Below the pieces are notes generated by a model. It ran no database searches and was not told where the DNA came from. It saw only the letters and a program-made list of their open reading frames with translations. A DNA stretch of 64,000 bases. Origin: Clostridia bacterium (GTDB taxonomy: Bacteria; Bacillota; Clostridia; Oscillospirales; CAG-272). Shown here piece by piece: positions 47,223 to 64,000 of this stretch (positions within the stretch are counted from its first letter, which is position 1; every line of letters begins with the position of its first letter). The stretch is from the NCBI GenBank assembly GCA_017452525.1, contig JAFTMG010000054.1:1-64000 (forward strand), read 5' to 3'. A program made the translations under genes and the position numbers.

Positions 47223-48038
47223 TTACGCGTCTTTTTGGGGGATCTCGCCGCTCTTGATGATATGGCGAGGACATTTTTCCACGCACTTGCCGCAGGCAAC
47301 GCATTTTTCATAATCGATATGCGCGCCGAAGCTATCCACGGTAATGGCATCGGCTTCGCAGGTTTTGACACACAGCTTGCAGCTGATGCAACCCGCGTCG
47401 CACAGCGTACGGGTGATCTTACCGGGAAGCGCAGTACGGCAACCGACCCAATACTTAGCGTCATAGGGGATCAGCTCGATCAGATTCTTGGGACAGTTGG
47501 TCACGCAGGTGCCGCAACCGACACATTTCTCATAATCGACGATCGCCGCACCCTCCACCATATGAATGGCATCAAACATGCAGGAGGCGGCACAGGTACC
47601 GAGACCGATACAGCCGTTGGGACACATCTTATCTCCACCGCCCAGCTTGGCGGCGGCAATGCAATCCTTGGCACCGGCGTAACGGTATTTGAGGTGGGCG
47701 TTTCCGCCCATGCCGGAGCACATGATCTGCGCGCGGCGGCGAACCTTTTTTCCGGTCTCCACCCCCATGATCTTACCGATCTGCTCGGTGGCGGCGGCAT
47801 CGCAAACGGTACACGCCGTCGGCTTGGCGTCTCCGCGCACAATGGCATCTGCCAGCGCGGCACAGCCGGAGTAGCCGCATCCGCCGCAATTCGCGCCCGG
47901 CAGCTGCTCCATCACCTGCGGTACGCGGGGGTCGATCTTCACAGCAAACAGGCGGGAGGCAATGGCGAGGATCAGACCGAACACAAGTCCCAGTCCCGCA
48001 AAGATCCCCATAGGGATCAAAACAGCATTCCAATTCAT
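47223..48038 (-). CDS. rnfB: Rnf complex subunit B
   Basis: A 271-aa subunit: N-terminal membrane helix (residues 8-32), the four-Cys Fe-S domain starting GANCGGCGYSGC near residue 48, and further ferredoxin-type motifs (CPNGCIGLGTC, CVGCGTCVTNCPKN, CKLCVKTCEAD, CVACGKCVEKCPRH). It is the ferredoxin-facing entry point of the ion-translocating ferredoxin:NAD oxidoreductase. It is last in the rnfCDGEAB order usual for clostridia. Confidence 0.96.
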   Translation of the reverse strand: MNWNAVLIPMGIFAGLGLVFGLILAIASRLFAVKIDPRVPQVMEQLPGANCGGCGYSGCAALADAIVRGDAKPTACTVCDAAATEQIGKIMGVETGKKVRRRAQIMCSGMGGNAHLKYRYAGAKDCIAAAKLGGGDKMCPNGCIGLGTCAASCMFDAIHMVEGAAIVDYEKCVGCGTCVTNCPKNLIELIPYDAKYWVGCRTALPGKITRTLCDAGCISCKLCVKTCEADAITVDSFGAHIDYEKCVACGKCVEKCPRHIIKSGEIPQKDA

Positions 48039-48053
48039 CTTCTCTGCCCTCCC

Positions 48054-48641
48054 TCAACGAAAACTCATACCCGAAAATCCCGAAAACGCCATGGCAAGCA
48101 GACCTGCCGCCAGAAGCGTCAGCGGGAAGCCACGGAAGGCACGGGGCGGATTGGCAAAGCGCAAGCGGACACGGACACCTGCAAACACCACGATCGCCAG
48201 CGTAAAGCCGAGCGCCGAGGCAAAGCAGAAGCATACCGTTTCCACAAAGCCGTAATCGTTCTGGATACTGAGCAGTGCCGCACTGAGAACGGCACAATTG
48301 GTGGTGATCAGCGGCAGATAAATTCCCAGCGCGCTGTAAAGGGCGGGAATGTATTTACGCAAAAACATCTCGATAAACTGCACCAGCGCCGCAATGATCA
48401 GGATGAAGGCGATGGTCTTGAGATAGGTCAGCTCAAAGGACACCAGAAGAAAGGTGTAAACACACCACGTCACCGCCCCCGAAAGGGTCATAACGAAGGT
48501 GACCGCCATGCCCATACCCAGGGCGGTATCCGGCTTTTCGGAAACGCCGAGGAAGGGGCAGCAGCCGTAAAACTTGGAGAAGATGAAGTTTTCGACGAGG
48601 ATCGCGCCGAACATCATCAAAAGGAGCTCTGTCAACGTCAT
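48054..48641 (-). CDS. rnfA: Rnf complex subunit A
   Basis: A 195-aa integral membrane protein with six helices. It contains NFIFSKFYGCCPFLGVS (residues 18-34) and a second CysAla-type half-helix (ITTNCAVL), the features that bind the membrane [2Fe-2S] centre with RnfE. Its start overlaps the rnfE stop by 4 bp. Confidence 0.95.
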   Translation of the reverse strand: MTLTELLLMMFGAILVENFIFSKFYGCCPFLGVSEKPDTALGMGMAVTFVMTLSGAVTWCVYTFLLVSFELTYLKTIAFILIIAALVQFIEMFLRKYIPALYSALGIYLPLITTNCAVLSAALLSIQNDYGFVETVCFCFASALGFTLAIVVFAGVRVRLRFANPPRAFRGFPLTLLAAGLLAMAFSGFSGMSFR

Positions 48642-49312
48642 GCCTGCTCCTCCTCTCCCGCATTTTCGCTTTTCTTTTGCGCGTTCTGCTTAGCCGCTTT
48701 CTTTTTGTCCTTCATCACGTTGCGGATCTTCTGCACGGCGGCGATCAGGAGCCCCAGCGTCAGAAACGCGCCGGGCGGCTGGATGAACAAAAGCGCCGGC
48801 TGATACCGTGAGCCGAGTACCGCAAACCCGAACAGCGTTCCCGCCCCCAAAAGCTCACGCACCGCGCCGAGTAACACCAGCGCAAAGGTAAAGCCCAGTC
48901 CCATAGCGACACCGTCCATGATCGAAGGTATCACCGGATTGCGGGAAGCGAATGCCTCCGCGCGGGCAAGAATGATGCAGTTGACCACGATCAACGGGAT
49001 AAACAGTCCCAAAGAGCCATACAGATCATAAAAATACGCCTTCATCAGCAGCTCGATGGCGGTTACAAAGCCGGAAATGATGACAATGTACGCCGCGATA
49101 CGAACCTGCTTGGGAATGAATTTGCGAAGCAGAGAGATCAGAAAGTTGGAGCAGATCAGCACCGCGGTTGCAGCAAGTCCCATACCCAATGCATTGGTGA
49201 TGGAGGTGGTGACCGCCAAAGTCGGACACATACCCAGCAGCTGGACAAGCACAGGGTTATTTTCAAACAATCCCTCCCGGATCTGCTTGCCAAAGGAATA
49301 TTTGGTACTCAT
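48638..49312 (-). CDS. rnfE: Rnf complex subunit E
   Basis: A 224-aa membrane protein with six helices, homologous to RnfA in inverted topology. It contains VQLLGMCPTLAVTTS near residues 22-36 and LIVVNCIILARAEAFA, the Cys-bearing half-helices of this family. A charged Lys/Ala-rich tail of about 30 residues ends the protein. It overlaps rnfG and rnfA by 4 bp on each side. Confidence 0.95.
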   Translation of the reverse strand: MSTKYSFGKQIREGLFENNPVLVQLLGMCPTLAVTTSITNALGMGLAATAVLICSNFLISLLRKFIPKQVRIAAYIVIISGFVTAIELLMKAYFYDLYGSLGLFIPLIVVNCIILARAEAFASRNPVIPSIMDGVAMGLGFTFALVLLGAVRELLGAGTLFGFAVLGSRYQPALLFIQPPGAFLTLGLLIAAVQKIRNVMKDKKKAAKQNAQKKSENAGEEEQA

Positions 49313-49863
49313 TCTGCCTCACCTCCGATCAGATTCATTTGCGACAGCGCCTGCAGTGCCGTATTCACACCTGCCAGCACCGCTTTGGAGCTGACGGTGG
49401 CACCGGAAACTCCGTCCACCTCGCGCCCCAGCGTCAGTTCCCCGCTCTTGCCAATATACCCGGCAAGATACGAGGCGGCACCGACCTTCGTGCCAAGTCC
49501 CGGTGTTTCCGACATGGAGACGATGGATACACCGATGATCCTTCCGTCTTCGCCAACACCGACCATCAGATCGATGTCGCCGCCAAAGCCGCCGGTCAGC
49601 AAATTGACGCAATAGCCCAACGCGCGGTCGCCCTCCGAAACGGTATACACACCCGTGACCTCCTCGGGCAGCTCTGACATGGGCTCATAGCTCAACTGTT
49701 CGCTGCCGAAGATCGCGGTGATGGAGGCACGGCGATCCGCCTCCAGATTTTCTTCGATCTTTTCGTATGTCAGCTGATTGACCAGCGAGACCACGCCGGC
49801 GATCAGCGCGCTGATCAGCGTCAGCACCAGCGCGATCTTCGCGCTCTGCAATATCTTACTCAT
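49309..49863 (-). CDS. rnfG: Rnf complex subunit G
   Basis: A 184-aa subunit with one N-terminal helix and an extracytoplasmic FMN-binding domain. DGVSGATVSSKAV near residues 149-161 is the motif in which Thr carries covalent FMN. It shares one base with rnfD and overlaps rnfE by 4 bp. Confidence 0.95.
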   Translation of the reverse strand: MSKILQSAKIALVLTLISALIAGVVSLVNQLTYEKIEENLEADRRASITAIFGSEQLSYEPMSELPEEVTGVYTVSEGDRALGYCVNLLTGGFGGDIDLMVGVGEDGRIIGVSIVSMSETPGLGTKVGAASYLAGYIGKSGELTLGREVDGVSGATVSSKAVLAGVNTALQALSQMNLIGGEAE

Positions 49864-50879
49864 CAGCGATCACCTCCGAACACGCGTGGACGGGTGATGC
49901 GCTCAATGTACCAGACCAAACTGTTCATAATCAGAATAGAGAAGGATACCCCCTCCACGTAGCCACCGAACCGGCGGATCAGCACCGTCAGCACACCGCA
50001 GCCCGCGCCAAAGAGCAACCGTCCGCGGGAGGTAATGGGCGAGGTAACATAATCGGTCGCCATAAAGATGGCACCCAACATCAATCCGCCCGAGCAAAGC
50101 TGCATCAGCACGTATTCCGCAGTCTCCATACCTGCGGGAACTGCCAGGCAGGAGAGTAGCGCCACCGTGCCGAGATACGCCACGGGGATATGCCATGTAA
50201 TGACTCGGCGGACCAGCAGATAAACACCGCCGATCAACAGAAGCAATGCCGATATCTCACCGATACAACCACCTACTCTGCCGAAAAAGAGATCTGCCGG
50301 AGATACGGCGTCCATCTCTCCGCCACGCATCTGCGCCAAGGGCGTTGCGGACGCGATGGCATCCGCCTCCTTGACCGTAAGCTGCCAGAAAGGCAACCGA
50401 TGAAAGGGTGCGGGAAACGCCGAAATCTGCGTGGGCCACGAGAAGAGAAAAACTCTCGCCGCCAGCGCGGGGTTCATAAAATTCTTGCCGATGCCGCCAA
50501 ACATCTGCTTGACCAGCACGATGGCAAATGCCGAGCCTGCCACGCACATCCACCACGGTGCCGTGGAGGGCAGATTAAAGCCCAAGAGCATACCTGTCAC
50601 CGCCGCGGAAAGATCGGCAACGGTGATGGGGCGATGGAGCAGCTTTTGCGTCAGCCACTCAAAGAATACACAGGAAATCGCGCAAAGCGCGGTCACGGTG
50701 ATGGCGCGTGAACCAAACACATAGCATGCCCACAGCAAAGCCGGCGTAAGCGAGATCAGCACGTCCCGCATGACGGTCGTGGTGGTCGCCGGGTGCTTGA
50801 TATGGGGAGAGGGACAAACCGTCAAAAGCTCAGGCATTTTTACCTGTTCCTCTGCCGTCGGAGTTACTTGTTGTTCCAT
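49863..50879 (-). CDS. rnfD: Rnf complex subunit D
   Basis: A 338-aa membrane protein. I start it at MEQQVT, because GGAGGG lies 10 nt upstream and the frame open 53 codons further upstream overlaps rnfC. It has about nine to ten helices. DAIASATPLAQMR resembles the SGATPL-type site of covalent FMN in RnfD, with Ser-Ala-Thr in place of Gly-Ala-Thr. The ATG follows the rnfC stop codon by 1 bp. Confidence 0.94.
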   Translation of the reverse strand: MEQQVTPTAEEQVKMPELLTVCPSPHIKHPATTTTVMRDVLISLTPALLWACYVFGSRAITVTALCAISCVFFEWLTQKLLHRPITVADLSAAVTGMLLGFNLPSTAPWWMCVAGSAFAIVLVKQMFGGIGKNFMNPALAARVFLFSWPTQISAFPAPFHRLPFWQLTVKEADAIASATPLAQMRGGEMDAVSPADLFFGRVGGCIGEISALLLLIGGVYLLVRRVITWHIPVAYLGTVALLSCLAVPAGMETAEYVLMQLCSGGLMLGAIFMATDYVTSPITSRGRLLFGAGCGVLTVLIRRFGGYVEGVSFSILIMNSLVWYIERITRPRVFGGDR

Positions 50880-50880
50880 G

Positions 50881-52251
50881 TCACTTCTTCCCTCCATTTC
50901 CAAGGTCAGGTGCCGCCGCCGAAGCACGGGCACGCGCCGCCGCCTGCTCGGCGCGGATCGCGCCCTTTGCCACACGGATGTATTGCACAATCTCCACCTG
51001 CCCGGGACAGCGGTAGGAGCAGGTGCCGCATTCCACACAGCTCAACACGTTCAATTTTTCCGCCTCCGCGTATTGCTTGGTGCGGGCAAAGGCGGCAAGA
51101 TAATTGGGCATCAGATGCATGGGGCAATTCTTCACGCAGGTGCCGCATCGGATACATGCCGAGGGCAGGGTCTGCTTCTGTACCTTATCCTTCGACAAAA
51201 CAAGCACCGCCGCGGTACCCTTGGTCACCGGTGTATCCAAGGACCATTGCGCGAATCCCATCATCGGCCCGCCGTTGATGACACGGTCGGGAACCTTTTT
51301 CAGCCCGCCGCAGGCGGCGATCAGATCGGTATAAGACGTACCGATAGGAACCCGAAGATTTTTCGGGGTTCGGATGCAGTCGCCGTCCACCGTGACCAGA
51401 CGGTCGATCAGCGGCATATTGTCCACAAAGGCGTGATAGATCGCGGCGCAGGTCTCTGCATTGAAGATCACACAACCCACGTCGGCGGGCAGCTTGCCTG
51501 CGGGGATCTCCTTCTTGGTCAGCGCATAGATCAGCTGGCGCTCGTCTCCCTGCGGATATTTGGTCTTCATTATCTTGATACGGATACGTCGGCTCGCATC
51601 TCTCGCACGCCGCAAGACGCGCACCGCGTCCATTTTGTTATCCTCCACCGCGATCCGCGCCTTCATGACGCCGAAGATCTTGAGCAGGATCTGCGTGCCG
51701 CCAAGGATACTCATCGGCTCCTCCAGCATGAGACGGTGGTTTACGGTAATATAGGGCTCACACTCCGCGCAGTTGATGATGACGCGGTCCACCTTACCCA
51801 GCGCGCTTTGGATCTTGGCGTACGTAGGGAAGGTCGCGCCGCCCATACCGGAAATGCCGGCGCGGCGGATGATCTCGATCAGCTCCTCGTTGGAGGTCTC
51901 ACTCAAGCCCTTGGTTCTTGGGACGATCTCGGGGGCAAGAGTTCCCTGCCCGTCGTTTTCTATGATCACGTGCTCAATCACCGTACCCATCACGTTCTGG
52001 CGTTTTTCAATGGCGAGCACCTTACCGGAAACGGAGGAGTGGACGGGACAGCCCAAGCCGTTTGCCACGTCACCGATCATCTGTCCGCGATACACGTAAT
52101 CTCCCACGGCAACGGTGGGGGTACAGTGTATACCGATATGCTGGGACATGGGGATCGCTACCTGACCTACGTCACGCAACGGCTCGATCGGACATGCGGC
52201 GGTATGTTTATGCTCTTTTACGTGAGCGCCGCCACGAAAGGTATATTTCAA
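50881..52251 (-). CDS. rnfC: Rnf complex subunit C
   Basis: A 456-aa subunit starting with TTG (AAAGGAG 8-9 nt upstream); an ATG 19 codons earlier has no RBS and lies in the promoter region. It has the N-terminal barrel (PMSQHIGIHCTPTV), the NADH/FMN domain (GMGGATFPTYAK, NCAECEPYI) and two ferredoxin motifs (CIRCGTCVKNCP, CVECGTCSYRCP). It is the NADH-facing soluble subunit. It is the first gene of the operon, with a promoter about 60 bp upstream. Confidence 0.96.
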   Translation of the reverse strand: MKYTFRGGAHVKEHKHTAACPIEPLRDVGQVAIPMSQHIGIHCTPTVAVGDYVYRGQMIGDVANGLGCPVHSSVSGKVLAIEKRQNVMGTVIEHVIIENDGQGTLAPEIVPRTKGLSETSNEELIEIIRRAGISGMGGATFPTYAKIQSALGKVDRVIINCAECEPYITVNHRLMLEEPMSILGGTQILLKIFGVMKARIAVEDNKMDAVRVLRRARDASRRIRIKIMKTKYPQGDERQLIYALTKKEIPAGKLPADVGCVIFNAETCAAIYHAFVDNMPLIDRLVTVDGDCIRTPKNLRVPIGTSYTDLIAACGGLKKVPDRVINGGPMMGFAQWSLDTPVTKGTAAVLVLSKDKVQKQTLPSACIRCGTCVKNCPMHLMPNYLAAFARTKQYAEAEKLNVLSCVECGTCSYRCPGQVEIVQYIRVAKGAIRAEQAAARARASAAAPDLGNGGKK

Positions 52252-52310
52252 TCTGTTGCTCTCCTTTCTTCGGAAAACAGGAATTGATGCGCCGAAGCGC
52301 ATACACATTT

Positions 52311-52445: not shown

Positions 52446-55400
52446 TTACCTAAGAAAAAGATACAACGTCGTTTCGCGTATCAAGTAAGAAACTGTGGAT
52501 TGATCCAGCAAAGCGCGGGCGCGCTTGCTCTTGACCTGATTGCGTGCGCGCTCTACCAAACGATACGCGTTTCCGTAGATCTGCTGATACGCCACGTTGA
52601 CCGTGCCAACACTCGGGAAACGAACGCTGGCTACCAATTCTCCCATTTCATTCTTATCATATCGCTCTGCCGTTTCGGCAATGATGCGAATGATCTCAGA
52701 CTCCTGGTAGGAATCCAGATATGCGCGATGATAACGGTAGTACTCGTGATTGGTGTAGTGGAATTTCTCCAGATCGGGATAAAATTCCTTTCTTGGAATA
52801 TGCATGATTTTGGTCTCACCCGCAGGGTTGATAAACTCTTGATACGGCGAGCAGAAATAGTTATAGAAAATATTATTTTTCCAATCCTCTCCCGTCTTCG
52901 TGTCGGATGGATCTCCCCACGTAGCATCCAGATAATAGCAATATTTGCCGATCTTCAGAATATTAAAGGCGTGACAGTCTTCACCGATCGATTCACTGAT
53001 CACATATCCGCAAACAACACCTACCGACTGCAGCAAATATTGCATGGCAGCAGCATAACCGGCACATACCACCTTGTGCAACACAAGGGCACTGTGCAGC
53101 GAACGCAACGGATCATCCTGTGAACGATCCTTGTCCACGTGATTTTCCAATCCGACGGTATCGTAATCGGTGTTCAATATCAATCTGCGGTATATGGTCA
53201 GTACTGCCTGATACGGGTCTGTTTTTCGTGTGATCCCTTTGGTGAAGAACTTAGCTCCCCGACGCAGCTCCGCGCGCTTCTTATCTACCTGTTTGACGTC
53301 CAATTCACCATTGGGCAGCAGGCAACGGAATTTCAGACAGAATTGTCCCGTGCGGTTGTATTTGTCCACGTCGCCGTTCAGCTCTACCCAGAACAATTCC
53401 GGATAATCACAGCAAACCAACTTAAGGATATTGGATGCGGTTTTCCAACCGACATCCGAGATATCGATCGGTCCACACTTGTATTCATATGCATGGCGGA
53501 CCATATCATTGTATATTCGGATCTTCGGATTGGTCGCTTCATCCGCTTCATGAGGAAGGATCTTTTCACCTTCCGTTTTACGGCTGCGGAATAGTCCGCC
53601 GCGCTTGTTCCGATCTTTTTGCTTGTCGGTATCCTTTTCGGTATCGGTGTCCTTTTCGGTGTCCGTATCTTTTTCGGTATCCGTATCCTTTTCGGTTTCA
53701 TCCCGTTCTACTGCATCGTCATCGATCTCTTCCGCCTCGCCTGTATCGAGGTGCTGATTTCTCAGATAACGCTTCCAGAAGCGAGGGATCTTGTTGGGAT
53801 CGTAAAGACCGTCATAGGTGTCATCACCGAAAAAGTCGTCCTTCTTCTTGTCTTCTTCCTCTTCACCGTCCCGATCGTCGGAATCCTTGTCCCTGTCATC
53901 ATCAACGGAGGGATCCTTTTTGCGGTTCAGAAAAGCAAAGCTGGTATGAACGGTACCGTCTTCGTCGCGCAACGGAGTTTCTTCGGTCAGCGCCTTGGAA
54001 ACGTCCACGCCGACGTAAGCAGAGATCTCATCGATTTGCGTGCGGATCTCATCGCTGACATGCCGGTAAGTCCAATCAGCACTCTCGTGCGATCCCTGAC
54101 GACGCAGCCAAAGCAACTCCTCATAGTAGAGCTGCGCATCGGCATAAGGAATGATCAATCGGTGATCCGACTGCCACAGCTCGATCATACCGCGCAGCAG
54201 CGAGACGCGGGCATTATTGACGGGATCGTCCTGCTCCACGTAGATCGTACGCTCGGTGAGATCCGTGCGGTAATAATACTCGCTCAAGCACTGATCTTCC
54301 TCCAGATCATACACCGGATCAATGGCACAATCGGATAGACCGAGACCGATCTCGGGATAACGCTCACCCAGATATCTGCCCATCTCACCGTGAAGTGTTC
54401 GCAGGATCTCTACGGAATTTACTATCTCTCGGTGACATTCCGCGCATATGAGACGGTTGCGATCGAACAGTGAGTATCTACCGCTTTCCATCTGCTTATG
54501 GCAGAAAGCACACAGCTCCACCGTTTCATCCTCTTCCCCACCGTCATCCGCGGTCTGGTAATCTCGGTCACCCGAATCGGACAGGCGCAGATTATACCCA
54601 TCCAACAAACGGCAACAGCCTTCCAGATCAAAGCATTCGGGCATGCCTTTTCCGCCAAAATAGATATAATGCTCCATTCCGGGACGAGCCTTCAGCCAAC
54701 ACAGATAGGAATAGATATTTTCCAAGAACTCCCGCATATACGTGCCGAGGGGATCGTAGAACCAGTCGAGCGCGCCAACATCCTCCGCGCAGTCGTTGAT
54801 GATCAAAAGGGTAATACGGCAGTCATCGGTTTCCGCAAATTCCCCTTTCGCGTTCTGCAGGTAAGGATAAAGGGTGCGAATGCGGTCGATCTCATTTTTC
54901 GGCTCGTTGGAGCGGTCAAAGGGCAGTGGATCGCGAAGTAGCGGGACCACCGAGATCGCATGGTAAACGCCCGGGAAAATGGTGCGGGTAAACTCATTGA
55001 GGACAGCCGCCAGAAGCGCTCTCATGCCGTCGGTGCAATCCATACGCGCCTTCAGCTCCACCTTCATCACTCTGCCGTCCACATAGCTTCTGGTATGCGG
55101 CTTTTCCACATGAGGATTGCCGTCAAGTCCGGAGGGATGGTAGAAATCAAGCGTCTGCTTATCTGCGGTCTGACTGTAAAAGCCGTAGGTCTCAGCCGTA
55201 AATACCGCACTGCAAGGGGTCACACGGATCTCTTCCAGCATCAATCTGGTATTGTGCAACACGCCCACCTCTCTGTTGGTCGCAGGCGTCAGCTTTTCCA
55301 TCTTGTAGCGACGCAGATGCACCGTATCGAGAGAATTGCGTATCTTCACGTTTTCATTTCGCAGATGGATCACACGACCATCCTCGGAAATGTGCTCGAT

Positions 55401-58091
55401 CTCATATTCTGAATTGCGGTAGAGAATACTCTGCCCGGCAATGTATTCCAAATGTGTGCGGCTGGGATAGGTATCGATCTTGCCAAGCGAGATATCGTTG
55501 AGTCGGAGCTCCACTCGCTCGTTGCAGGCAAAGAGCGCTTTAAAGATCTCCTTGACGCGGTTGAATACCACATACTGCTCAACCGAGGTCGTATTGCCCA
55601 CCGTCTTGATCTGCTCGGTGATCAGATAAAAGTCCTTTGCGCGATTACCGACACTGCGGGCGCGGCAGGCAGACTCTTCTTCCTCGTTGTGCCAGATATC
55701 GCTGTCGCAAAGTCCCGCGATCAGATAAGCGGCAAGCTCGTTGGCATTGAGCTGATCCACTTCTCTGCCTTCCACTATGCGCTTACAAAATGCCGACGCA
55801 ACCACGTCTCCGCGCTCCTGCGAATAACGGATCACGCGACGCATCTGATCCTCAAAAGTGGAAAGCAACACACCGTCCTCTGTCGGCATATCGCAAAATA
55901 CGCGCAAGAGGGACAGCTTGTGGCGGTCCACATGCTCGGGAACCAACGGCTGAATGAAGGAGGAACGGTTGACAAAATCCTCCTTTGCCACACGGGACAC
56001 AAAATATTCTCTCAACAGATAAGGCTTGCTGAGAATGTGAACGATCGATTTCTCCTTGCCGCGGAAGCGCGTGCAGGCATAGATTGCCGCGGAAAGATTG
56101 CTTCTGCTATCGGAATAGATCATATAATTGACATCCGCGATGTCACGGTAAAGACGGTTGATCTCCACATTCCGCTTGGAAAGAAGCTCGCGGTCTGCAT
56201 GATCCAGGGGAGAATCGGTGATCACACGAACACCGTCCACTCCGTATTCGCAGGCAAGGTCTGCGATAATACATTCCAAACCGGTTCCCTTCTGACCGTA
56301 TTTCTGATAAATGCGGTGATTTTTGCTCTCCTGATTCCAAAGAATATAAGAAACGGTCTCATTTTCGCGGGCACTGCTGATGAACAGCACCGATTTTACG
56401 CCAAAAAATCTGGGAAGCGTGCTTGCAGCGAAGCCTTTATACAAATCCATGGAAAGGAAGATCATACGAATGCGATCCTTGGTAGCACGGCGCAGCTGTG
56501 CCGCGATCACGGGGCACACGTAACCGTCCATGGAGATCGCACGATCCGCGTCGACGAAGATGGCATTGGCGACCTCTTCGAAAAAGACAGGATATTGCTC
56601 GATCAGATCGCCGCACTTGAAATCTTCGGGCGATGCAATCAGAATATCCGCCTGATCCAACCGCTCATCCGCGGTACAGATGCGCCACCCCTTGGCGGGA
56701 GAGGATCCCGTAAGCCGGGTCAGGCGATCGTCGATATAAGTACGCAATGTTTCTCGCTCTGCCGGATCGGACACCACATATACCATGCGGGCACCGGACA
56801 ACAGGCGGATATAGGTGTAAGAAACCAGATATTCACCCAGCTCCGAATAGAAGGAAGCTGCAAAATAGACATGGTTATCCTCAAACACCAGATCCAGACA
56901 CTGCATGTAGCTACCTGCTACGCGTCCGGAGACACGCTTCATGCGATCTGCAATAAATCTCAGCGAGCTTTGATAGGTTCTGTTATGGGGTTCGTATTCG
57001 GGCAAGGTTGCCTGCTTTTCCTCAGGATAATAACGGATATAATGCTCTTCGTCAAAACGGCGGCGAAGCTCGAGCAAAAGCTCATCCAGCTTGGCATCCC
57101 GCTTCTTACGATCATCCTTTTTTTGATCCTCATCCTTTTTCCGCTGTTCGACCGTTTCCTTGCGGGGAGGCGTGCGGAAAATATTGCAGGTCTCCTGCAA
57201 GAACAGAAGAGACAGGATCGGATACAGATACCAGTCGCTGATACGGATCACATTCATCAGAAAATCGTACAGCTTATCCGGGATCTTGTAGGACGAGATC
57301 ATCATAAGACTAAAGATGGCGGAAAGATATACAAATCCGACCAGGATCACGAAGGTCTGCAGGACGATCCGTCCCCGCACGACCCATCGGCGTGCATACT
57401 CAAACTCCTCTCCCTCAAAAAAGAGTCCGTAGAAGAATTTTTCCGCCATATTGTATTCGGGCTTGGGGGTATTCTCTTCGTTGTTCTCATTTTCTTCCTC
57501 ATCGGGATCGGGGGCGTCTATAACCTCCTTTTCCTCGTCTGCCTTCGCATGGCGGCGATGGAAGAATTTCGGAACACGGAATCTTCGTCTCTTTTTCTTT
57601 TTTTGGTCGGGATCCGCCTCGGTACTCTGATCTGTTAAGCCCTCCGTATCCTCTTGTTCTCCCTGCTTTTTCTTGGAGCGTCTCGGGGCAAACCCATAGA
57701 ACGGATCAAGCAGCAGGCGCTTCAGCAGAGACTTCAATATGACATACACATACAAAAATACCAGATTCAGGATCAGCACACGGATCAGCAGGATCACAAA
57801 ATCCGCACGGGATCCGATTGCACGGTTCAACCAGTCGATGAAGCGAGCCACAAATCCGATTTTCCCTATGGTGGTGACAATAAAATCCAATACTGCAATC
57901 ACAAGGGCAATGATGGCAACCTCCAACAGGGAAAGAAGCAGGTACACCGCATTTTTCTTATTATGCGGTGCCTGATAGCGGAGTCTGTCTGCCAAGGAGA
58001 ACTGAGCAAGAGACTTTGGCAAGGACAGGAAGGGATAGATCATCAGAATGGCAAAGATCAAAAAGAACAACAGATTGACCACGACCATCAT
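52446..58091 (-). CDS. Giant membrane protein: degenerate YprA/MrfA-like helicase body, zinc finger and transglutaminase-like domain
   Basis: An 1881-aa protein. Residues 1-300 hold four to five membrane helices (about 3-22, 48-75, 98-125, 243-268, 285-300) split by a charged loop. Residues 390-800 resemble a superfamily 2 helicase that has lost Walker A: ILIASPEDF (483-491) sits where TPGR is expected, IFVDAD (511-516) where DEAD is, and IFLSMD where SAT is. Residues 880-1170 recall the region after the helicase in YprA/MrfA proteins (YIAGQSILYRNSEYEIEH, then LLIINDCAEDVGALDWFYD like DUF1998). CAFC and CAEC near 1190-1217 form a zinc finger. A TEKDTD repeat precedes a C-terminal transglutaminase-like fold with Cys about 1674 (HKVVCAGYAAAM), His about 1708 (DCHAFNIL) and Asp about 1722 (YLDATWGDP). 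It overlaps the 637-aa gene by ATGA. Domain calls are by eye. Confidence 0.68.
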   Translation of the reverse strand: MMVVVNLLFFLIFAILMIYPFLSLPKSLAQFSLADRLRYQAPHNKKNAVYLLLSLLEVAIIALVIAVLDFIVTTIGKIGFVARFIDWLNRAIGSRADFVILLIRVLILNLVFLYVYVILKSLLKRLLLDPFYGFAPRRSKKKQGEQEDTEGLTDQSTEADPDQKKKKRRRFRVPKFFHRRHAKADEEKEVIDAPDPDEEENENNEENTPKPEYNMAEKFFYGLFFEGEEFEYARRWVVRGRIVLQTFVILVGFVYLSAIFSLMMISSYKIPDKLYDFLMNVIRISDWYLYPILSLLFLQETCNIFRTPPRKETVEQRKKDEDQKKDDRKKRDAKLDELLLELRRRFDEEHYIRYYPEEKQATLPEYEPHNRTYQSSLRFIADRMKRVSGRVAGSYMQCLDLVFEDNHVYFAASFYSELGEYLVSYTYIRLLSGARMVYVVSDPAERETLRTYIDDRLTRLTGSSPAKGWRICTADERLDQADILIASPEDFKCGDLIEQYPVFFEEVANAIFVDADRAISMDGYVCPVIAAQLRRATKDRIRMIFLSMDLYKGFAASTLPRFFGVKSVLFISSARENETVSYILWNQESKNHRIYQKYGQKGTGLECIIADLACEYGVDGVRVITDSPLDHADRELLSKRNVEINRLYRDIADVNYMIYSDSRSNLSAAIYACTRFRGKEKSIVHILSKPYLLREYFVSRVAKEDFVNRSSFIQPLVPEHVDRHKLSLLRVFCDMPTEDGVLLSTFEDQMRRVIRYSQERGDVVASAFCKRIVEGREVDQLNANELAAYLIAGLCDSDIWHNEEEESACRARSVGNRAKDFYLITEQIKTVGNTTSVEQYVVFNRVKEIFKALFACNERVELRLNDISLGKIDTYPSRTHLEYIAGQSILYRNSEYEIEHISEDGRVIHLRNENVKIRNSLDTVHLRRYKMEKLTPATNREVGVLHNTRLMLEEIRVTPCSAVFTAETYGFYSQTADKQTLDFYHPSGLDGNPHVEKPHTRSYVDGRVMKVELKARMDCTDGMRALLAAVLNEFTRTIFPGVYHAISVVPLLRDPLPFDRSNEPKNEIDRIRTLYPYLQNAKGEFAETDDCRITLLIINDCAEDVGALDWFYDPLGTYMREFLENIYSYLCWLKARPGMEHYIYFGGKGMPECFDLEGCCRLLDGYNLRLSDSGDRDYQTADDGGEEDETVELCAFCHKQMESGRYSLFDRNRLICAECHREIVNSVEILRTLHGEMGRYLGERYPEIGLGLSDCAIDPVYDLEEDQCLSEYYYRTDLTERTIYVEQDDPVNNARVSLLRGMIELWQSDHRLIIPYADAQLYYEELLWLRRQGSHESADWTYRHVSDEIRTQIDEISAYVGVDVSKALTEETPLRDEDGTVHTSFAFLNRKKDPSVDDDRDKDSDDRDGEEEEDKKKDDFFGDDTYDGLYDPNKIPRFWKRYLRNQHLDTGEAEEIDDDAVERDETEKDTDTEKDTDTEKDTDTEKDTDKQKDRNKRGGLFRSRKTEGEKILPHEADEATNPKIRIYNDMVRHAYEYKCGPIDISDVGWKTASNILKLVCCDYPELFWVELNGDVDKYNRTGQFCLKFRCLLPNGELDVKQVDKKRAELRRGAKFFTKGITRKTDPYQAVLTIYRRLILNTDYDTVGLENHVDKDRSQDDPLRSLHSALVLHKVVCAGYAAAMQYLLQSVGVVCGYVISESIGEDCHAFNILKIGKYCYYLDATWGDPSDTKTGEDWKNNIFYNYFCSPYQEFINPAGETKIMHIPRKEFYPDLEKFHYTNHEYYRYHRAYLDSYQESEIIRIIAETAERYDKNEMGELVASVRFPSVGTVNVAYQQIYGNAYRLVERARNQVKSKRARALLDQSTVSYLIRETTLYLFLR
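53625..53699. repeat. 18-bp coding tandem repeat (TEKDTD)
   Basis: At least four imperfect 18-bp units encode TEKDTD repeats in the acidic linker before the transglutaminase-like domain. The units differ by synonymous changes, so copy number may vary between strains. Confidence 0.85.
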
Positions 58092-60001
58092 ATCATATCA
58101 CTTCCTTTCTTGGGAAACATCTCATCGATCGCATCGATTGAAAAAACACGGTAGACCTTATTTTTATCCGAGTCAATCGGCAGAGACGGGTCAAATTCCT
58201 CGCTCACGTCCACATTGGGGTCGCAAACGGGACGGATGTCCAACTGATTGAGCATGGCGCTCAGATGATCCTCCAGCGTCTCCAACATATTTTGATGATT
58301 CTTAATATTTCTGTTTTTTTCCAGATTTGCCTCATAAAGACAACGCAGACGGCGCAGTTCAAAACGCACCCGCTCAATATTGATCAGATCCACTTCATAT
58401 CTCCGACGGATCTGAGCCATGCATGCCCGCTCCTTTTGGAGACACTTTTGATAGCATTCGCACAAAAGCTTCTTCTCCCGATGCATGCGGAGCAATGCCG
58501 GAATACGCCACAGGAAAAGGCTGAAGAAAAACAGCACGGAAAACATCACCGCAAAATTCCCCAACAGAATGGCTGACGGCAAAACGGAGCCGGGATAGTA
58601 CGCCAGTTGAAGCGAAATATAGGGGATCAGCATAACAAGCAGTGTAGCGATCATAAACAGCAGATCTCCGCAAAAGCTGTGGCGCAAAGAAAGCTTCGCG
58701 CTGACATACCGATTGTAGATGGCATCCGCCTGCTCCATCTCCTCCGCATAATCTTGCTCAACACGGGCAGCGGTCAAGGTACGCTGGAAGCATTCGGAAA
58801 TTTCGTCCTGCTTCTTGGTTACCACCTGGCGATATATCGCCTGTGAGGGGCATTGCTTGGTAAGCACGAGACTGTTGGTCCGCACCATCTCGTCAAAATC
58901 TTCTTTTACGTCGATCTCGCGATTTTCATCGCGCTCGACAAGATACGCCGCCATGATCTGATCCATCTCGGCACTGTTCCGCAACGCGACATCCTCCGGC
59001 GATCTCTGGCAGATCTCACAGATATTTTGGTAGAGCACCTCCATGCTCCACCCCGAACAATTTCCGCCATCTTCCCCTTCCCCGCTCGTCAAAGGGGAGG
59101 AGTCGCCCAAGGAGGTCAACAGACCCACGTTTCCTTCCATAGAATAATAGTCGGAATCGTTTTCCTGAGCGACCTTCTTTGCCGCCTGGGTCTTATTCCA
59201 CGCTCTTTCCAGAACAGCGCGAAGACGGTCGGTATCCAATGAGGGGACACGAATGCTCCCCTCCCCGGGCAATGCTCTTTCCAATTCGTACAGACGGATC
59301 ATGTGAAGAGACAGGGACAGTGTGTCCAACGCGGCGCGCGCTTTTCCGCCACCGTATTGGGTAATGTAAAAATGGCGACGAATATTCGTTCGGTTACCGT
59401 TCCGATAGCGGAATGCTTCAAAAAATTCCGAAAAGGTCATTCGCTCCGCACCGTAAGGGTAGTCTCGTAAGCGAAGCTCCACCGATTCCTTTGGCGTGCA
59501 GTAAAGGCGGAAGGCGGCATACTTTTTCTCGGCGCCCGCCTCCGGAGCCTCCTCATCCTCACATCCCTCAAGGATCCGCGCGGCTTGTTCCTTGGCATTA
59601 TGAATATTGGATAGGTTTTCCCATTCCATGTTCTGTATATAGAAGACCTCGAAATCCTCCGCGCGCAGTTCGTTCCGATCTAACTGCCGTTGCAAACGAT
59701 CCGTCAGGTATGCTTCGATATACGGCACGTAGATCTCAACATCCACACCGTTTTCCTTGCCGGGCTCCTGTCTGGCGTACGGAACGCGAAGCCGATCGAA
59801 TGGATAAAAATCGATCAGAACCGCGATTCGAAAAGCCCCTGCACCCAGCACGCTCTGCTTTTCACAGATTATTTTGCCGTATTGCTCGATCTCGGAAAGC
59901 GAACAGTTGATCCAACGGATCTTATGATACCCCGCCATCTCAAACAGGCGATCGCTTTCAAATGTTTTGTTCCCCGAGGTGTTGATCACATAGGTCAGCA
60001 T
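58088..60001 (-). CDS. Coiled-coil membrane protein of the tubulin-like operon (637 aa)
   Basis: The N-terminal 160 residues form an alpha/beta domain without recognised family (MLTYVINTSGNKTFES, AFRIAVLIDFYPFDRL). Residues 165-430 are mostly helical. Two membrane helices lie at about 445-470 and 475-500, flanked on both sides by helical segments likely to form coiled coils (AARVEQDYAEEMEQADAIYN before, KNRNIKNHQNMLETLEDHL after). AAGGAG about 10 nt upstream supports the start, which lies inside the 3' end of the tubulin-like gene (44-bp overlap). The stop overlaps the next start by ATGA. The layout suits a membrane adaptor for the tubulin-like filament, but this is inference; no homologue is recognised. 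Confidence 0.65.
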   Translation of the reverse strand: MLTYVINTSGNKTFESDRLFEMAGYHKIRWINCSLSEIEQYGKIICEKQSVLGAGAFRIAVLIDFYPFDRLRVPYARQEPGKENGVDVEIYVPYIEAYLTDRLQRQLDRNELRAEDFEVFYIQNMEWENLSNIHNAKEQAARILEGCEDEEAPEAGAEKKYAAFRLYCTPKESVELRLRDYPYGAERMTFSEFFEAFRYRNGNRTNIRRHFYITQYGGGKARAALDTLSLSLHMIRLYELERALPGEGSIRVPSLDTDRLRAVLERAWNKTQAAKKVAQENDSDYYSMEGNVGLLTSLGDSSPLTSGEGEDGGNCSGWSMEVLYQNICEICQRSPEDVALRNSAEMDQIMAAYLVERDENREIDVKEDFDEMVRTNSLVLTKQCPSQAIYRQVVTKKQDEISECFQRTLTAARVEQDYAEEMEQADAIYNRYVSAKLSLRHSFCGDLLFMIATLLVMLIPYISLQLAYYPGSVLPSAILLGNFAVMFSVLFFFSLFLWRIPALLRMHREKKLLCECYQKCLQKERACMAQIRRRYEVDLINIERVRFELRRLRCLYEANLEKNRNIKNHQNMLETLEDHLSAMLNQLDIRPVCDPNVDVSEEFDPSLPIDSDKNKVYRVFSIDAIDEMFPKKGSDMI

Positions 60002-62702
60002 ATATCTGTGCTCTCCTTTCCGAAAGAAGAAGGACGATCGTTTCCGGCTCGCTTCTTGTTTCTTTTTGTTTCAAATTTTCGCCGGGCGATACAACAGATT
60101 CCGCCTTCGCCGACAGATGAATGCTCAAATGAGGATTCCAAATTTCCGTGCGACACTCGCTGTACTTAGCGAGCGCCTTTTGATAAGCCACGGCGCAGGG
60201 TGAGCGCGGCGGCGTTTCCCGCAACCATTCCAGATCGGCAAAGCGCATGCCCAGACTTTCACGGCAAAGCGTGAAGCGGTGGGGCGCTTGCTCCTCTGTA
60301 AAGACGACGCGGCAAGGAATGTTGCCGTATTGACCGAGAAGTGTTTCAACCGCCCGTGCGGCATCGCCTTCTCCGAAGATCTCCGGGTGCTTCTCCACGT
60401 ACGTTTTTTCCGCCGCGGGCAATATCAGAAGCGCGCGATGGCAAACAGCGTTTACCTCTCCGTCTCCCGTATGCGGAGGCGAAACATAATAATAGGTAGG
60501 ATACATGCCCTCCGCAAAGGCGTTGCGAAGCATATCGGGCGCATAGCAAGCCGCGCGATACAGCTGATGAAGAACGCTCTGCCCGGACAGATCCTCCGCA
60601 AAGCCACAGGCATGGCATTGCGTCTTCGCGGTCTGCCACAGGCGGTCATGCAGCTCCGTCAGCCAAGGGGTGATGGCAGTCATATGTTCTGTCGGTGCCG
60701 TCTCCATTGCCTCCCCCAAAAGCATCTCGCGCGCGACGATCTGCTCACGGTACTCGTCGCTCTCCCATGCCCGGTAGGATGCATACGTATCTGCCAATTC
60801 CGAATCACTGACGCCAACGTAGCGAACTCTGCCTCCTAAAGGCTGTTCTTTCACTTCCGGACGGGGTCGCTCGGTCAGCTCGGTCAGCGTGGCATACAAA
60901 CGGTAATAGGAATTCAAACGCGCACCGATCAAAGCAAGCGCGTGACGCAAATGATCCACGGTAAAGTGGCGGACCACTCGGTCGTGAACAAGCTTTACGT
61001 CCGCCATAAAAGCGGCGCGGTCATCGGCGGTCAATATCGCAACGCGGCGGTCCTGTGCATTTTCAAATCTGGTGAAGAGTCGGGTTGTGCCGAAGCGGCA
61101 GTACCGCCCTTTTCCCTCAGATGCCGACTCTGCGCGCAACCATTCGGCAGGCAACTGTGCCCCGCGAAGCATGGAGGAAACGGACTCCTCGTTCCCTGCC
61201 CCCAGCATCCGCTCGACCTCACGGTATGCCGTAGCCAGACGTACCAATGCCGCTGTGGGATGTAACACGCGTCCTTCGCGGCGAATCATTTCCTGCGAGA
61301 TCATCTGCGAGATCTGCTGCGTCAGCTCCTTCGTCTGCGAAGATCGCTCCATGCATTGGGTATAATGATCCGTCAGCCAAAGACGGCTTTGTGCCGCCTG
61401 CTCGGCAAACGGGCGATCCTCAATGCGGAACAGTCGGCGCCACGCGGCACGCACACCGCGAGGCTCTGTAACCGAGGCTTGCCACTGCGCGATGCGGTCC
61501 GTACTTTCGGTGTGAAAGCTCTCGCCAATACGGTCAGCGAGATGGGCGATCATCACAGGAATATCCTCCGCCATTCCCTCACACAGTGCATCCTGCAAGC
61601 ATGCCGCGGCATGTACCGCCTCTGCCAATGCCGATTCACGGTATCGGAACAGCAATCGGTTTTCATAAACACCGGCGCGGATCTGCGCCAGCGCACGGTC
61701 GGTCTGCTTTTGCATCGGCAGGATCTTCTCCTCCACGAGCGACTGCACAGAGCGATCGGCAATATAAGCTACAACGCGTTCCAACGGATAGACCGTGTGT
61801 GACAGGGTCCACTCCGCAAAGGGCGCATCGTTCGTTTTCTCAGTTTGTGCGACCGTCTCCCAGCCTTGCAGGCGGGCAATATCGGTCATCAGACGGGCGT
61901 AGTCCTCCACCGTGTGAAGTTCTGCCTGCTTGCGGCAGACGGCTACCTGCCCAAAGGGGCGGCACTGCTTCTCCTCATCATGGGCAAAATGGGAAAACAG
62001 GTCGCCGAAATACGGGTCATCCTTCCCACCAAAAGGCAGAGAAGTAATACCGTCGGCACTCTTCTCCTGCGAGGCGGGGGCAAACACCGACCGCCACTCT
62101 GCCATTGCGGCAAATGCGTTGGCGCGCGCGCGAAGCAGCTGTTCGTTGCCAAGCTTACCCTCAAGGATCTCCGGAGGTGCCAACACGGCGCGGATGGCGT
62201 TGACCTTGACGCCGCGTGCGGCAAGCTCTCTCGTGACATATAGGGTCAACGGGAGCAAAAGCCCCGACCCTGTTCCACCCGAGAGAGACGCAAGAATGCC
62301 AAGCTCCGCTTCCCCGCCCGTCTCGGCGGCAAAAGCAGCCAGCTCTCGATGCAACGCACCCTCCTCGGGACGTGCCAGATAAGCGGCAAAGGCGAGCATG
62401 GCTTTTTTGCGCCACATGCCCGCACCGTCATTCATATATTGAAAAGTGAACGAGGCAAACTCCACCCGTGTGGGGTCGCACGGGAACCATTTGCCGATTG
62501 CGGCGGCATCCAGATCGGCAAGCACCTTGTCAACCGTTCGGGGATCCGCCAAAGAAATGCTCTTCGCGTGTTGCAGAGCGTATTCGGTCGCACGGTCCGT
62601 ATCCACAGCCAGCACGCAAGCCTTGCCCGCTGTCTTCTCGGCAAGCAGCTCCGCCGCTGCACATCCGAGCTGACCGATGCCGATCCATATTTTTTTGCTC
62701 AT
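59958..62702 (-). CDS. Divergent tubulin/FtsZ-superfamily GTPase (Tubulin_2-like)
   Basis: A 914-aa protein whose first 250 residues match the FtsZ/tubulin GTPase fold. IGIGQLGCAAAELL (7-20) aligns with the glycine-rich N-terminal loop, VLAVDTD (30-36) with FtsZ IAVNTD, NDGAGMWRKKAML (91-103) with the GAGANP loop, and SLSGGTGSGLLLPL (139-152) is the tubulin signature G-G-T-G-S-G. The following 650 residues are helical and have no assigned domain. The last 110 residues, including TEIWNPHLSIHL near residue 850-860, align with a segment of the upstream partial gene. Its size is typical of the large tubulin-like (Tubulin_2) proteins, not of cell-division FtsZ. It is co-oriented with two membrane-protein genes. 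Confidence 0.82.
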   Translation of the reverse strand: MSKKIWIGIGQLGCAAAELLAEKTAGKACVLAVDTDRATEYALQHAKSISLADPRTVDKVLADLDAAAIGKWFPCDPTRVEFASFTFQYMNDGAGMWRKKAMLAFAAYLARPEEGALHRELAAFAAETGGEAELGILASLSGGTGSGLLLPLTLYVTRELAARGVKVNAIRAVLAPPEILEGKLGNEQLLRARANAFAAMAEWRSVFAPASQEKSADGITSLPFGGKDDPYFGDLFSHFAHDEEKQCRPFGQVAVCRKQAELHTVEDYARLMTDIARLQGWETVAQTEKTNDAPFAEWTLSHTVYPLERVVAYIADRSVQSLVEEKILPMQKQTDRALAQIRAGVYENRLLFRYRESALAEAVHAAACLQDALCEGMAEDIPVMIAHLADRIGESFHTESTDRIAQWQASVTEPRGVRAAWRRLFRIEDRPFAEQAAQSRLWLTDHYTQCMERSSQTKELTQQISQMISQEMIRREGRVLHPTAALVRLATAYREVERMLGAGNEESVSSMLRGAQLPAEWLRAESASEGKGRYCRFGTTRLFTRFENAQDRRVAILTADDRAAFMADVKLVHDRVVRHFTVDHLRHALALIGARLNSYYRLYATLTELTERPRPEVKEQPLGGRVRYVGVSDSELADTYASYRAWESDEYREQIVAREMLLGEAMETAPTEHMTAITPWLTELHDRLWQTAKTQCHACGFAEDLSGQSVLHQLYRAACYAPDMLRNAFAEGMYPTYYYVSPPHTGDGEVNAVCHRALLILPAAEKTYVEKHPEIFGEGDAARAVETLLGQYGNIPCRVVFTEEQAPHRFTLCRESLGMRFADLEWLRETPPRSPCAVAYQKALAKYSECRTEIWNPHLSIHLSAKAESVVSPGENLKQKETRSEPETIVLLLSERRAQIYADLCDQHLGEQNI

Positions 62703-62743
62703 GCGAAGGTCACCTCCGTCTTGGGTTTTGTTTTCGGGGGGGA

Positions 62744-62772
62744 TATTCCCGCCCCTATTCGGGGCGGGAATA
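62744..62772. repeat. GC-rich hairpin between the two tubulin-like genes
   Basis: TATTCCCGCCCC and its exact complement form a 12-bp stem with a 5-nt loop, starting 6 nt after the stop of the upstream gene. A C-rich rather than T-rich tract follows, so partial attenuation or RNA protection is more likely than full termination. Confidence 0.65.
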
Positions 62773-62778
62773 GGTGGA

Positions 62779-64000
62779 TTACTGTTCGGGAGTCTCCGAG
62801 TCTACCTCATCCTCGGTCATCTCTTCCTGACCCAACAGCAGCTTTCGGATCGCGGCGTGCTTCTCATAATTGAAGTCATCCGTGATGCGGAACTCTCCGT
62901 TTGCGTGGAAGAGCTTATTGGGATCGATCTCACAGAAGAAACCGGCGGCGTTCAGCCAGTGTGCAAGCGCAGCGAATTGCTCTACACGGGGCGCGCCGAT
63001 CTTTTCACCCTGGACCAGTGCGGAACCGGCGATCTTTTCATAGAAAATCTCCAGCTGCTGCTTGTAGACCGTGACAAAAATATCCGGGGTACGCTTGGGC
63101 GAGGTGCGATGCTCGATCATCTTCAAGAAGCTTTGATAAAGCACGCGCAGTACGCGCTCCGCATCGTTGCAGTCTCTGTCGTTCTCCTCGGTGACCTTGA
63201 TGTTGTAGGCAAAAGCAAAGGCAGAAACTGTTTTGGTCTTGGAACGGCTCTTGTTGCTGACCGTATACAGCTCCTCGTTCAGCATCCACATGAAGGGAGA
63301 TTTCGTCAGATTGCCCTCCAGCTCGCGGATATCACTCTGACCGATCACGTTGGGCAGCTTCTTCATGTCTCCGTCCAGCTTACGGTCGTATGCTTCGGAC
63401 CACTCCTCAATCAGCTCTTCCTGCTCACGCATCCAGGACAACAGGTGGGCAATATTGGTCTCGGTAATGGGTGCCTGCACCTGATTATACAGGCTGCTCG
63501 TTCCCTTCTTGAAGGAGCTCTGATCGCCCATGCTACCAATGCCGTGTCCATAGGTGATCTTATCGGTGGAGAGGGCGTACAGAACCGCCTTCACCGTTTT
63601 GTCGTCGCCCTCCTGCTCCTTGCGGGGGTTCATATACGGCAGGTTAGCGCGCAGATGGAGATCGAAGCCCAGGTGGGGGTTCCACATATCGGTGTTATAC
63701 TTCTTGGCATTGGCAAGCGCGGTGGTATACTGCTTAAAGTAGGTGTTCTCCGCGCCCAACTCATCAAATTTAGCAACGCGCAACGGGGTGATATCTATGA
63801 TCTCGCCGGTGCAGTAGATCATTGTATCGGGGATGGAATCCACGATCACGACTCTGGCGTTCACCTCACCGCTGTAACGGCGGATGAACTGCTCCACGCA
63901 GGAGCGGACCAAAGCCGCATCCGAGCCGTCCCCATTGCTCAGGGACAGGTGGAAGCGCTCGGCATTGATCTTGATGTATCTTGCCACGTTCGTGGAGACC
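62779..64000 (-). CDS. Partial gene: C-terminal part of a probable second tubulin-like protein
   Basis: At least 406 residues are visible; the reading frame stays open to the window edge, and the GTG at 63987 has no RBS, so the 5' part most likely lies outside. Residues 25-140 (counted from that GTG) align with the last 110 residues of the adjacent tubulin-like protein: a VE-x3-x2-Y segment, RVVIVDSIPD versus RVVFTEEQAP, and the shared T-[DE]-[IM]-WNPHL motif. A further 260 residues without recognised domain follow, ending in an acidic tail. I infer the C-terminal half of a paralogous tubulin-like protein; no GTP-binding motif is visible here. Confidence 0.6.
   Translation of the reverse strand, partial: VSTNVARYIKINAERFHLSLSNGDGSDAALVRSCVEQFIRRYSGEVNARVVIVDSIPDTMIYCTGEIIDITPLRVAKFDELGAENTYFKQYTTALANAKKYNTDMWNPHLGFDLHLRANLPYMNPRKEQEGDDKTVKAVLYALSTDKITYGHGIGSMGDQSSFKKGTSSLYNQVQAPITETNIAHLLSWMREQEELIEEWSEAYDRKLDGDMKKLPNVIGQSDIRELEGNLTKSPFMWMLNEELYTVSNKSRSKTKTVSAFAFAYNIKVTEENDRDCNDAERVLRVLYQSFLKMIEHRTSPKRTPDIFVTVYKQQLEIFYEKIAGSALVQGEKIGAPRVEQFAALAHWLNAAGFFCEIDPNKLFHANGEFRITDDFNYEKHAAIRKLLLGQEEMTEDEVDSETPEQ

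Follow-up and report, generated by a model that had tools for sequence, protein, structure and literature searches.

A conserved operon for tubulin-like FtsZl1 proteins, a predicted extracytoplasmic vWA protein and a predicted membrane-anchored pseudo-helicase

The window analysed here comprises bases 1-64000 of the 70,312-base contig JAFTMG010000054.1 from a Clostridia bacterium (GTDB order Oscillospirales, CAG-272; assembly GCA_017452525.1), whose genome is ~80% complete and whose nearest named relatives are Clostridia metagenome-assembled genomes (MAGs) from gut samples. It contains most of an operon for tubulin-like proteins of the FtsZl1 family. A preliminary description of the window had reported four co-directional, partly overlapping genes, all of which were found on the minus strand within the window. 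The proposed four-gene operon is indeed conserved as a unit, but reading the genes on to the end of the contig revealed a fifth one, which heads the operon beyond the window. The transcription order is thus a vWA gene (1036 aa; contig 66646-69756, minus strand), the FtsZl1 gene Z1 directly downstream of it (1272 aa; contig 62779-66597, minus strand), with its C-terminal part, 62779..64000, inside the window, a second FtsZl1 gene, Z2 (914 aa; 59958..62702, minus strand), a gene for a protein with two transmembrane (TM) helices (2TM protein, 637 aa; 58088..60001, minus strand) and a gene for a large membrane protein (1881 aa; 52446..58091, minus strand). The open reading frames of Z2 and the 2TM protein share 44 nt, those of the 2TM and the large protein 4 nt.

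Z1 had initially been taken for a partial tubulin-like relative. It is tubulin-like, scoring 133.5 bits against PF13809 (Tubulin_2, the FtsZl1 family; cut-off 27 bits) over a domain at contig 65587-66585, but it is not a fragment, its reading frame simply being cut by the window edge. Z2, which had been assigned to the tubulin superfamily, also lies above the cut-off (47 bits; E-value 2e-12). Both proteins carry the T4 loop GGTGSG, in line with the family signature GGTG(S/T)G; the first (T1) loop of Z2, by contrast, reads GIGQLG instead of the expected GxGGTG. In the FtsZl1 alignment, the T4 loop is kept in most Z2-type proteins and the T1 loop altered in several, and a segment conserved in the other proteins (Z1 residues 284-301), tentatively a counterpart of the T7 loop, is missing from 13 of 15. 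An AlphaFold model of Z2 (predicted local distance difference test, pLDDT, 84.5; predicted template modelling score, pTM, 0.78; 79 sequences in the input) retrieved FtsZ, CetZ and TubZ as its best 50 Foldseek matches in the PDB, and VIA-align matched it to CetZ with a Z-score of 22.2 (297 of 342 residues aligned across model residues 1-851), to FtsZ with 21.8 and to BtubB with 19.6. As judged by this model, Z2 has a tubulin fold and is a member of the FtsZ/tubulin superfamily. Its N-terminal nucleotide-binding domain (residues ~1-285) is followed by a large helical insertion of ~400 residues, behind which a second tubulin-type domain (~750-850) appears to be present, because the aligned ranges extend beyond residue 820; since VIA-align returns aligned ranges only, the placement of this domain is not residue-level. 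An FtsZl1 protein that retains the second tubulin domain could plausibly polymerise by the usual route. In the family tree, a single long-branched group with good support (SH-aLRT, a Shimodaira-Hasegawa-like likelihood ratio test, 95) unites 15 Z2-type sequences and is nested in a clade with tandem FtsZl1 pairs. The sequences indicate that Z2 is a tandem, fast-diverging second tubulin, which may co-assemble with Z1.

The large protein starts with a TM region (residues 1-300; 57192..58091, minus strand) containing four to five helices according to its hydropathy. For residues 330-1420, AlphaFold yielded a confident model (pLDDT 87.7; pTM 0.85; 65 sequences), whose best PDB match was the DUF1998 helicase MrfA (6znp; Foldseek E-value 2e-18), with 637 of 748 residues aligned at a VIA Z-score of 18.2; a sequence-profile search of the PDB with the middle of the protein gave no usable match. 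The body concerned (residues 330-1170; 54582..57104, minus strand) has a helicase-related fold but is not a YprA helicase, because its Walker A and DExH motifs are absent. Among 69 large-protein sequences, the P-loop position is occupied by PFYxxL or a variant of it, and none has DExH/D at the position of motif II; GK[S/T] occurs within the P-loop window in 12 of them, lying before the strand and outside the loop in the rows inspected. With neither a P-loop nor a DExH motif, an active helicase is ruled out as the identity of the middle region, and the model instead indicates that the large protein is a membrane-anchored pseudo-helicase with the MrfA/YprA (DUF1998) fold. Weak matches of this region elsewhere in the phylum look like an ordinary helicase and zinc ribbons. 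The body is followed by a zinc ribbon (residues 1194-1219; 54435..54512, minus strand), whose four cysteines, C1194, C1197, C1216 and C1219 (CxxC..CxxC), are invariant across the 69 sequences. The preliminary description was therefore correct with respect to the TM helices, the cysteine cluster and a transglutaminase-like part; its helicase-like part holds as a fold but lacks the ATPase motifs, and a degenerate zincin had been overlooked.

This degenerate zincin-like region (residues 1230-1420; 53832..54404, minus strand), delimited by alignments, reads RGMIE where relatives have HELTH and thus lacks the HExxH motif with its downstream glutamate, which is intact in 25 aligned relatives. The zincin label is based on this motif together with sub-threshold Pfam matches, and profile searches with the intact zincins retrieved nothing usable from the PDB; an origin from DA1-like proteins, which combine LIM and zincin domains, is conceivable. 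The C-terminal transglutaminase/papain-like domain (residues 1545-1815; 52647..53459, minus strand) matches PDB entry 9crn (E-value 7e-13), whereas its match to PF01841 (E-value 0.001) stays below the cut-off, which is exceeded in the proteins of loci L016 and L159. Its triad, C1676, H1707 and D1722, is intact and kept in all 35 uncut transglutaminase domains. By sequence, the domain belongs to the transglutaminase-like superfamily. In a census of 65 distinct large proteins, an intact zincin stands alone, with no transglutaminase, in 23, whereas a dead zincin is accompanied by a transglutaminase, either fused to it or encoded next to it, in 26; eight combine an intact zincin with a transglutaminase, and six further proteins, whose zincin is dead, are truncated at a sequence end. 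In five of the eight doubly equipped cases, the transglutaminase is a separate adjacent gene and may not belong to the machinery, because its N-terminus resembles a signal or lipoprotein peptide. The zincin, in turn, is a separate gene in Microbacteriaceae, Eggerthellaceae and Coriobacteriales loci. Overall, dead zincins are almost confined to cases with a transglutaminase, a sequence pattern suggestive of an exchangeable enzyme end.

The vWA protein carries a metal ion-dependent adhesion site (MIDAS) of the sequence DNSGS and, although it does not itself match Pfam VWA, is homologous to relatives that match PF00092. Among 94 vWA proteins, the DxSxS (MIDAS) motif is found in 91, a hydrophobic N-terminus in 90 and a distal TM helix in 87, predicting that the protein is secreted, membrane-anchored and extracytoplasmic. 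The 2TM protein had been described as a two-helix protein, in agreement with its hydropathy: two hydrophobic helices (residues ~446-464 and ~478-496) with long flanks make it an adaptor candidate, and 75 of 79 relatives have two TM helices; a sequence-profile search of the PDB gave no usable match for it. Charge bias places the vWA domain outside the cell and the N- and C-termini of the 2TM protein within it. For the large protein, the lysine/arginine-rich stretches at residues 118-235 and after residue 300 likewise place the enzyme end inside.

To assess conservation, 101 loci (designated by L numbers) were collected by a family scan, a scan of a genome collection with FtsZl1 and, independently of these, one with the large protein. 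As whole-length searches with the 1881-aa protein were dominated by its transglutaminase domain, an alignment lacking this domain was used instead. The order vWA-FtsZl1-2TM-large protein is found at 53 loci and the order vWA-FtsZl1-FtsZl1-2TM-large protein at 17 more, with four genomes counted twice; many of the other loci stop at contig edges. The gene order, kept at these 70 loci, is far better conserved than expected by chance. Relatives of the query are favoured by the FtsZl1 scan, a bias from which the large-protein scan is free; the 20 loci fetched by the latter had vWA and FtsZl1 genes in all cases except L166 and L174, which are cut by contig edges, and one of them, L175, was without a recognisable 2TM gene. 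Carriers include Oscillospiraceae, Lachnospiraceae, Mogibacterium, Turicibacter, Eggerthellaceae, Microbacteriaceae and Cloacimonadota, so that the module spans several phyla, from Clostridia to Actinomycetota and Cloacimonadota, and its single-FtsZl1 form occurs in the named strains Faecalicatena contorta ET51, Naasia aerilata and Pseudolysinimonas kribbensis. Nevertheless, it is patchy and accessory, given that 25 of 394 genomes in the order of the window carry it and that a 398-genome sample of the phylum contained two strong matches only, both from this order.

From the computed genes, folds, catalytic motifs, conservation and enzyme exchange, together with the predicted topology, we infer how filaments may form, how the parts could contact each other, in which direction a signal might run and what substrate and purpose the system may have. 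It is possible, and our tentative preference, that the operon encodes an outside-to-inside machine. The vWA protein, held by one TM helix, would act as a sensor whose metal site binds a ligand or a neighbouring surface and whose signal passes to the cytoplasmic face. There, the conserved Z1 and the diverged Z2 GTPases would assemble on the 2TM adaptor, and their assembly would cluster or activate the large membrane protein. The dead YprA-type helicase body could serve as a scaffold or binding module for the C-terminal enzyme, a transglutaminase/papain-like domain here and a zincin peptidase in many relatives, and the output would be proteins that are modified or cleaved at the membrane. Arguing for such a machine are the gene order kept at the 53 and 17 loci, the return of the search with the large protein alone to vWA and FtsZl1 genes wherever the contig was long enough, the MIDAS and TM features of the vWA proteins combined with the charge bias that puts them outside and the 2TM ends inside, the tubulin fold of Z2, the MrfA fold whose ATPase motifs are gone, and the presence in nearly all complete large proteins of an intact zincin or a transglutaminase with an intact triad. 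The preliminary proposal of a membrane-tethered tubulin machine thus retains its anatomy, in which the 2TM protein resembles an adaptor and the large protein an effector, but it is not new as an idea, having been put forward in 2010 (PMC2875224); neither sporulation nor secretion, both of which had been mentioned as possible roles, is singled out by any result here.

Several observations weigh against this machine. The majority of vWA proteins fall short of the Pfam VWA cut-off, and the side of the enzyme end is read from charge bias in the window protein, the family average not being decisive. Two of the 65 large proteins (those of L104 and L106) are complete and have a dead zincin but no transglutaminase. 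Moreover, the tree gives only ~4 independent zincin losses, and a test of these against the presence of a transglutaminase is not significant; because the independent zincin changes are too few, the enzyme exchange is a pattern rather than statistical proof. An alphaproteobacterial locus has no enzyme end at all; it comprises vWA-like genes and genes for FtsZl1, a 2TM protein and a TM protein matching the profile of the pseudo-helicase, suggesting that the enzymes joined an older core. Finally, the model is computational throughout, with the contact between its parts inferred. A more specific, integrin-like variant, in which outside contact through the metal-dependent vWA domain drives a heteromeric tubulin filament that switches on a membrane peptidase or transglutaminase mounted on a dead DNA-helicase body, would make Z1 and Z2 a tubulin pair whose diverged partner is without part of the catalytic interface; we consider it rather unlikely.

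The two or three membrane proteins per operon would also fit the proposal made for FtsZl1 in 2010, namely membrane remodelling or vesicle formation, with polymers that bend the membrane and other proteins acting as anchors and regulators. This family-level view (PMC2875224) is itself a prediction only, however, and it leaves both the conserved peptidase and transglutaminase active sites and the helicase-derived body unexplained. We judge it improbable as the role of the present module.

A ~600-aa membrane protein lies within ~4 kb of the module at 15 loci, mostly adjoining it, and two of three tested show a match to a ryanodine receptor (RyR)-like C-terminal domain, below the cut-off; a CASTOR/POLLUX-like channel protein stands beside the module at seven loci, with one of two tested matching, again below the cut-off. 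Examples of such ion-channel-like neighbours are L160:15444-17213, L016:17148-18935, L082:5384-7210, L058:4442-6610 and one at L106. Another recurrent protein, of unclassified kind, is encoded at seven loci; its gene starts 4-39 nt after that of the large protein (L106:18668-19064, L110:19832-20419, L112, L116/L169, L117 and L122), and its N-terminus looks heptad-like by eye. At L013:14707-16353, a TIR and leucine-rich-repeat protein is encoded upstream of the vWA gene, with a citrate-transporter-like gene in between. In general, defence-type neighbours are present but scattered. The module could conceivably provide defence at the envelope, its YprA-like pseudo-helicase sensing incoming DNA or stalled entry at the membrane and its enzyme end acting as the effector. 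YprA helicases play a central part in DISARM, Dpd, Druantia and ARMADA (PMC12458937), tubulin and vWA genes are found together in GAP1-N2 conflict systems (PMC7159879), and the patchy distribution within the order and the occasional TIR or other defence-like neighbours would suit such a role. However, PADLOC 2.0.0 gave no match at an E-value of 1 or below for the four window proteins, scans of the flanking genes, made without a background control, revealed no dominant defence system, and there was no plasmid match. The large protein has moreover lost its helicase motifs, and DNA binding by it is hypothetical. A role in defence appears distinctly unlikely.

Even less probable, in our estimation, is the control of surface structures, adhesion or motility, the role indicated for the only FtsZl1 protein for which mutants show a phenotype: in Synechocystis, phototaxis suffers when sll0445 (Tubulin_2) and its neighbours are interrupted, and proteins of pilus assembly are among the associates of Sll0445 (PMC9880817). 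The vWA domain of PilY1, in addition, has been implicated in surface sensing (PMC9210963). Yet the partners in Synechocystis differ, and neither pilus nor flagellar families were conspicuous as recurrent neighbours of our loci.

Further observations concern the surroundings of the operon and other FtsZl1 genes. Six co-directional genes (47223-52308, minus strand), by eye an Rnf electron-transport operon rnfCDGEAB, start 137 nt past the gene for the large protein. Upstream of the vWA gene, the contig ends in two copies of an 85-nt direct repeat with a palindromic stretch (contig 70061-70312; L002:12062-12313); as no further copy was found elsewhere in the assembly, it may have broken the assembly at this point. 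MAG SIG648 has two complete double-FtsZl1 modules on different contigs (L067 and L068). A different FtsZl1 operon in the family of the window (L017:195-14519) encodes FtsZl1 and a secreted protein that has a distal TM helix; the genes after these are unrelated, and the product of one has an N-terminal CxxC motif. Lastly, a 9.8-kb unannotated faecal 'phage' record (MT836542.1, 6931-9792) contains an FtsZl1 gene whose product shares 83% identity with the L094 protein; a PHROGs search for a phage origin returned nothing, and the record may represent bacterial (host) DNA within a phage set.

FtsZl1 is a widespread, deeply diverged branch of the tubulins whose function is hardly known beyond the Synechocystis motility phenotype. 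The module gives it fixed partners with readable enzyme motifs, so that its role becomes testable by way of the enzyme's substrate and its dependence on the tubulins. Operons combining FtsZl1 with vWA have been known since 2010, when a role in membrane remodelling was predicted for them (Makarova & Koonin, PMC2875224). As in those operons, Z1 and Z2 match PF13809, a vWA gene is part of the operon and membrane proteins are nearby; unlike them, the operon of the window has no gene for OmpA, a protein kinase or a P-loop GTPase, and it adds the 2TM protein, the membrane-bound YprA-type pseudo-helicase, the zincin/transglutaminase end and, often, a second FtsZl1. That study found no reliable alignment beyond helix H5 and no similarity in the C-terminal part, where the Z2 model now points to a second tubulin-type domain. 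Among the GAP1-N2 GTPase conflict systems with tubulin and vWA genes (Kaur et al., 2020, PMC7159879), the Firmicutes versions share with our operon the paired tubulin genes and a membrane vWA protein whose domain lies outside. These systems, however, are built around GAP1 and TRAFAC GTPases, and their described FNIII-repeat and YtkA components have no counterpart observed here. Neither GAP1 nor a TRAFAC GTPase was recognised in the five genes of the operon; because only 556 bases of contig remain upstream of the vWA gene, such a gene may lie beyond it.

The large protein shares its overall fold with the MrfA/YprA (DUF1998) helicases of DNA repair, DISARM, Dpd, Druantia and ARMADA, and as a membrane-bound pseudo-helicase it would be an unexpected relative of these helicases. 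It differs from them in being TM-anchored, in lacking the ATPase motifs and in its fusion to a zinc ribbon, zincin and transglutaminase rather than to nucleases. In the literature searched, neither a YprA-type membrane pseudo-helicase nor a zincin/transglutaminase end was found beside a tubulin, although the supplementary partner lists of PMC2875224, which lay outside this search, may include them as unnamed families. The Synechocystis Sll0445-Sll0447 cluster likewise contains a Tubulin_2 protein, with a mutant phenotype, but its partners are FtsA-like and DivIC-like, and that study mentions no vWA, pseudo-helicase or peptidase. Similar to Z1 and Z2, the paired alpha/beta-tubulins and BtubA/BtubB are two co-encoded tubulin-fold paralogs; Z2, however, is far more divergent and without the segment kept by Z1, and its pairing with Z1 is putative. 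Collectively, the association of FtsZl1 with vWA (PMC2875224), that of tubulin with vWA in GAP1-N2 systems (PMC7159879) and one Tubulin_2 motility mutant (PMC9880817) were already known, whereas the predicted extended tubulin fold, the tandem, diverging second tubulin, the putative pseudo-helicase and the apparently exchangeable enzyme end are new here.

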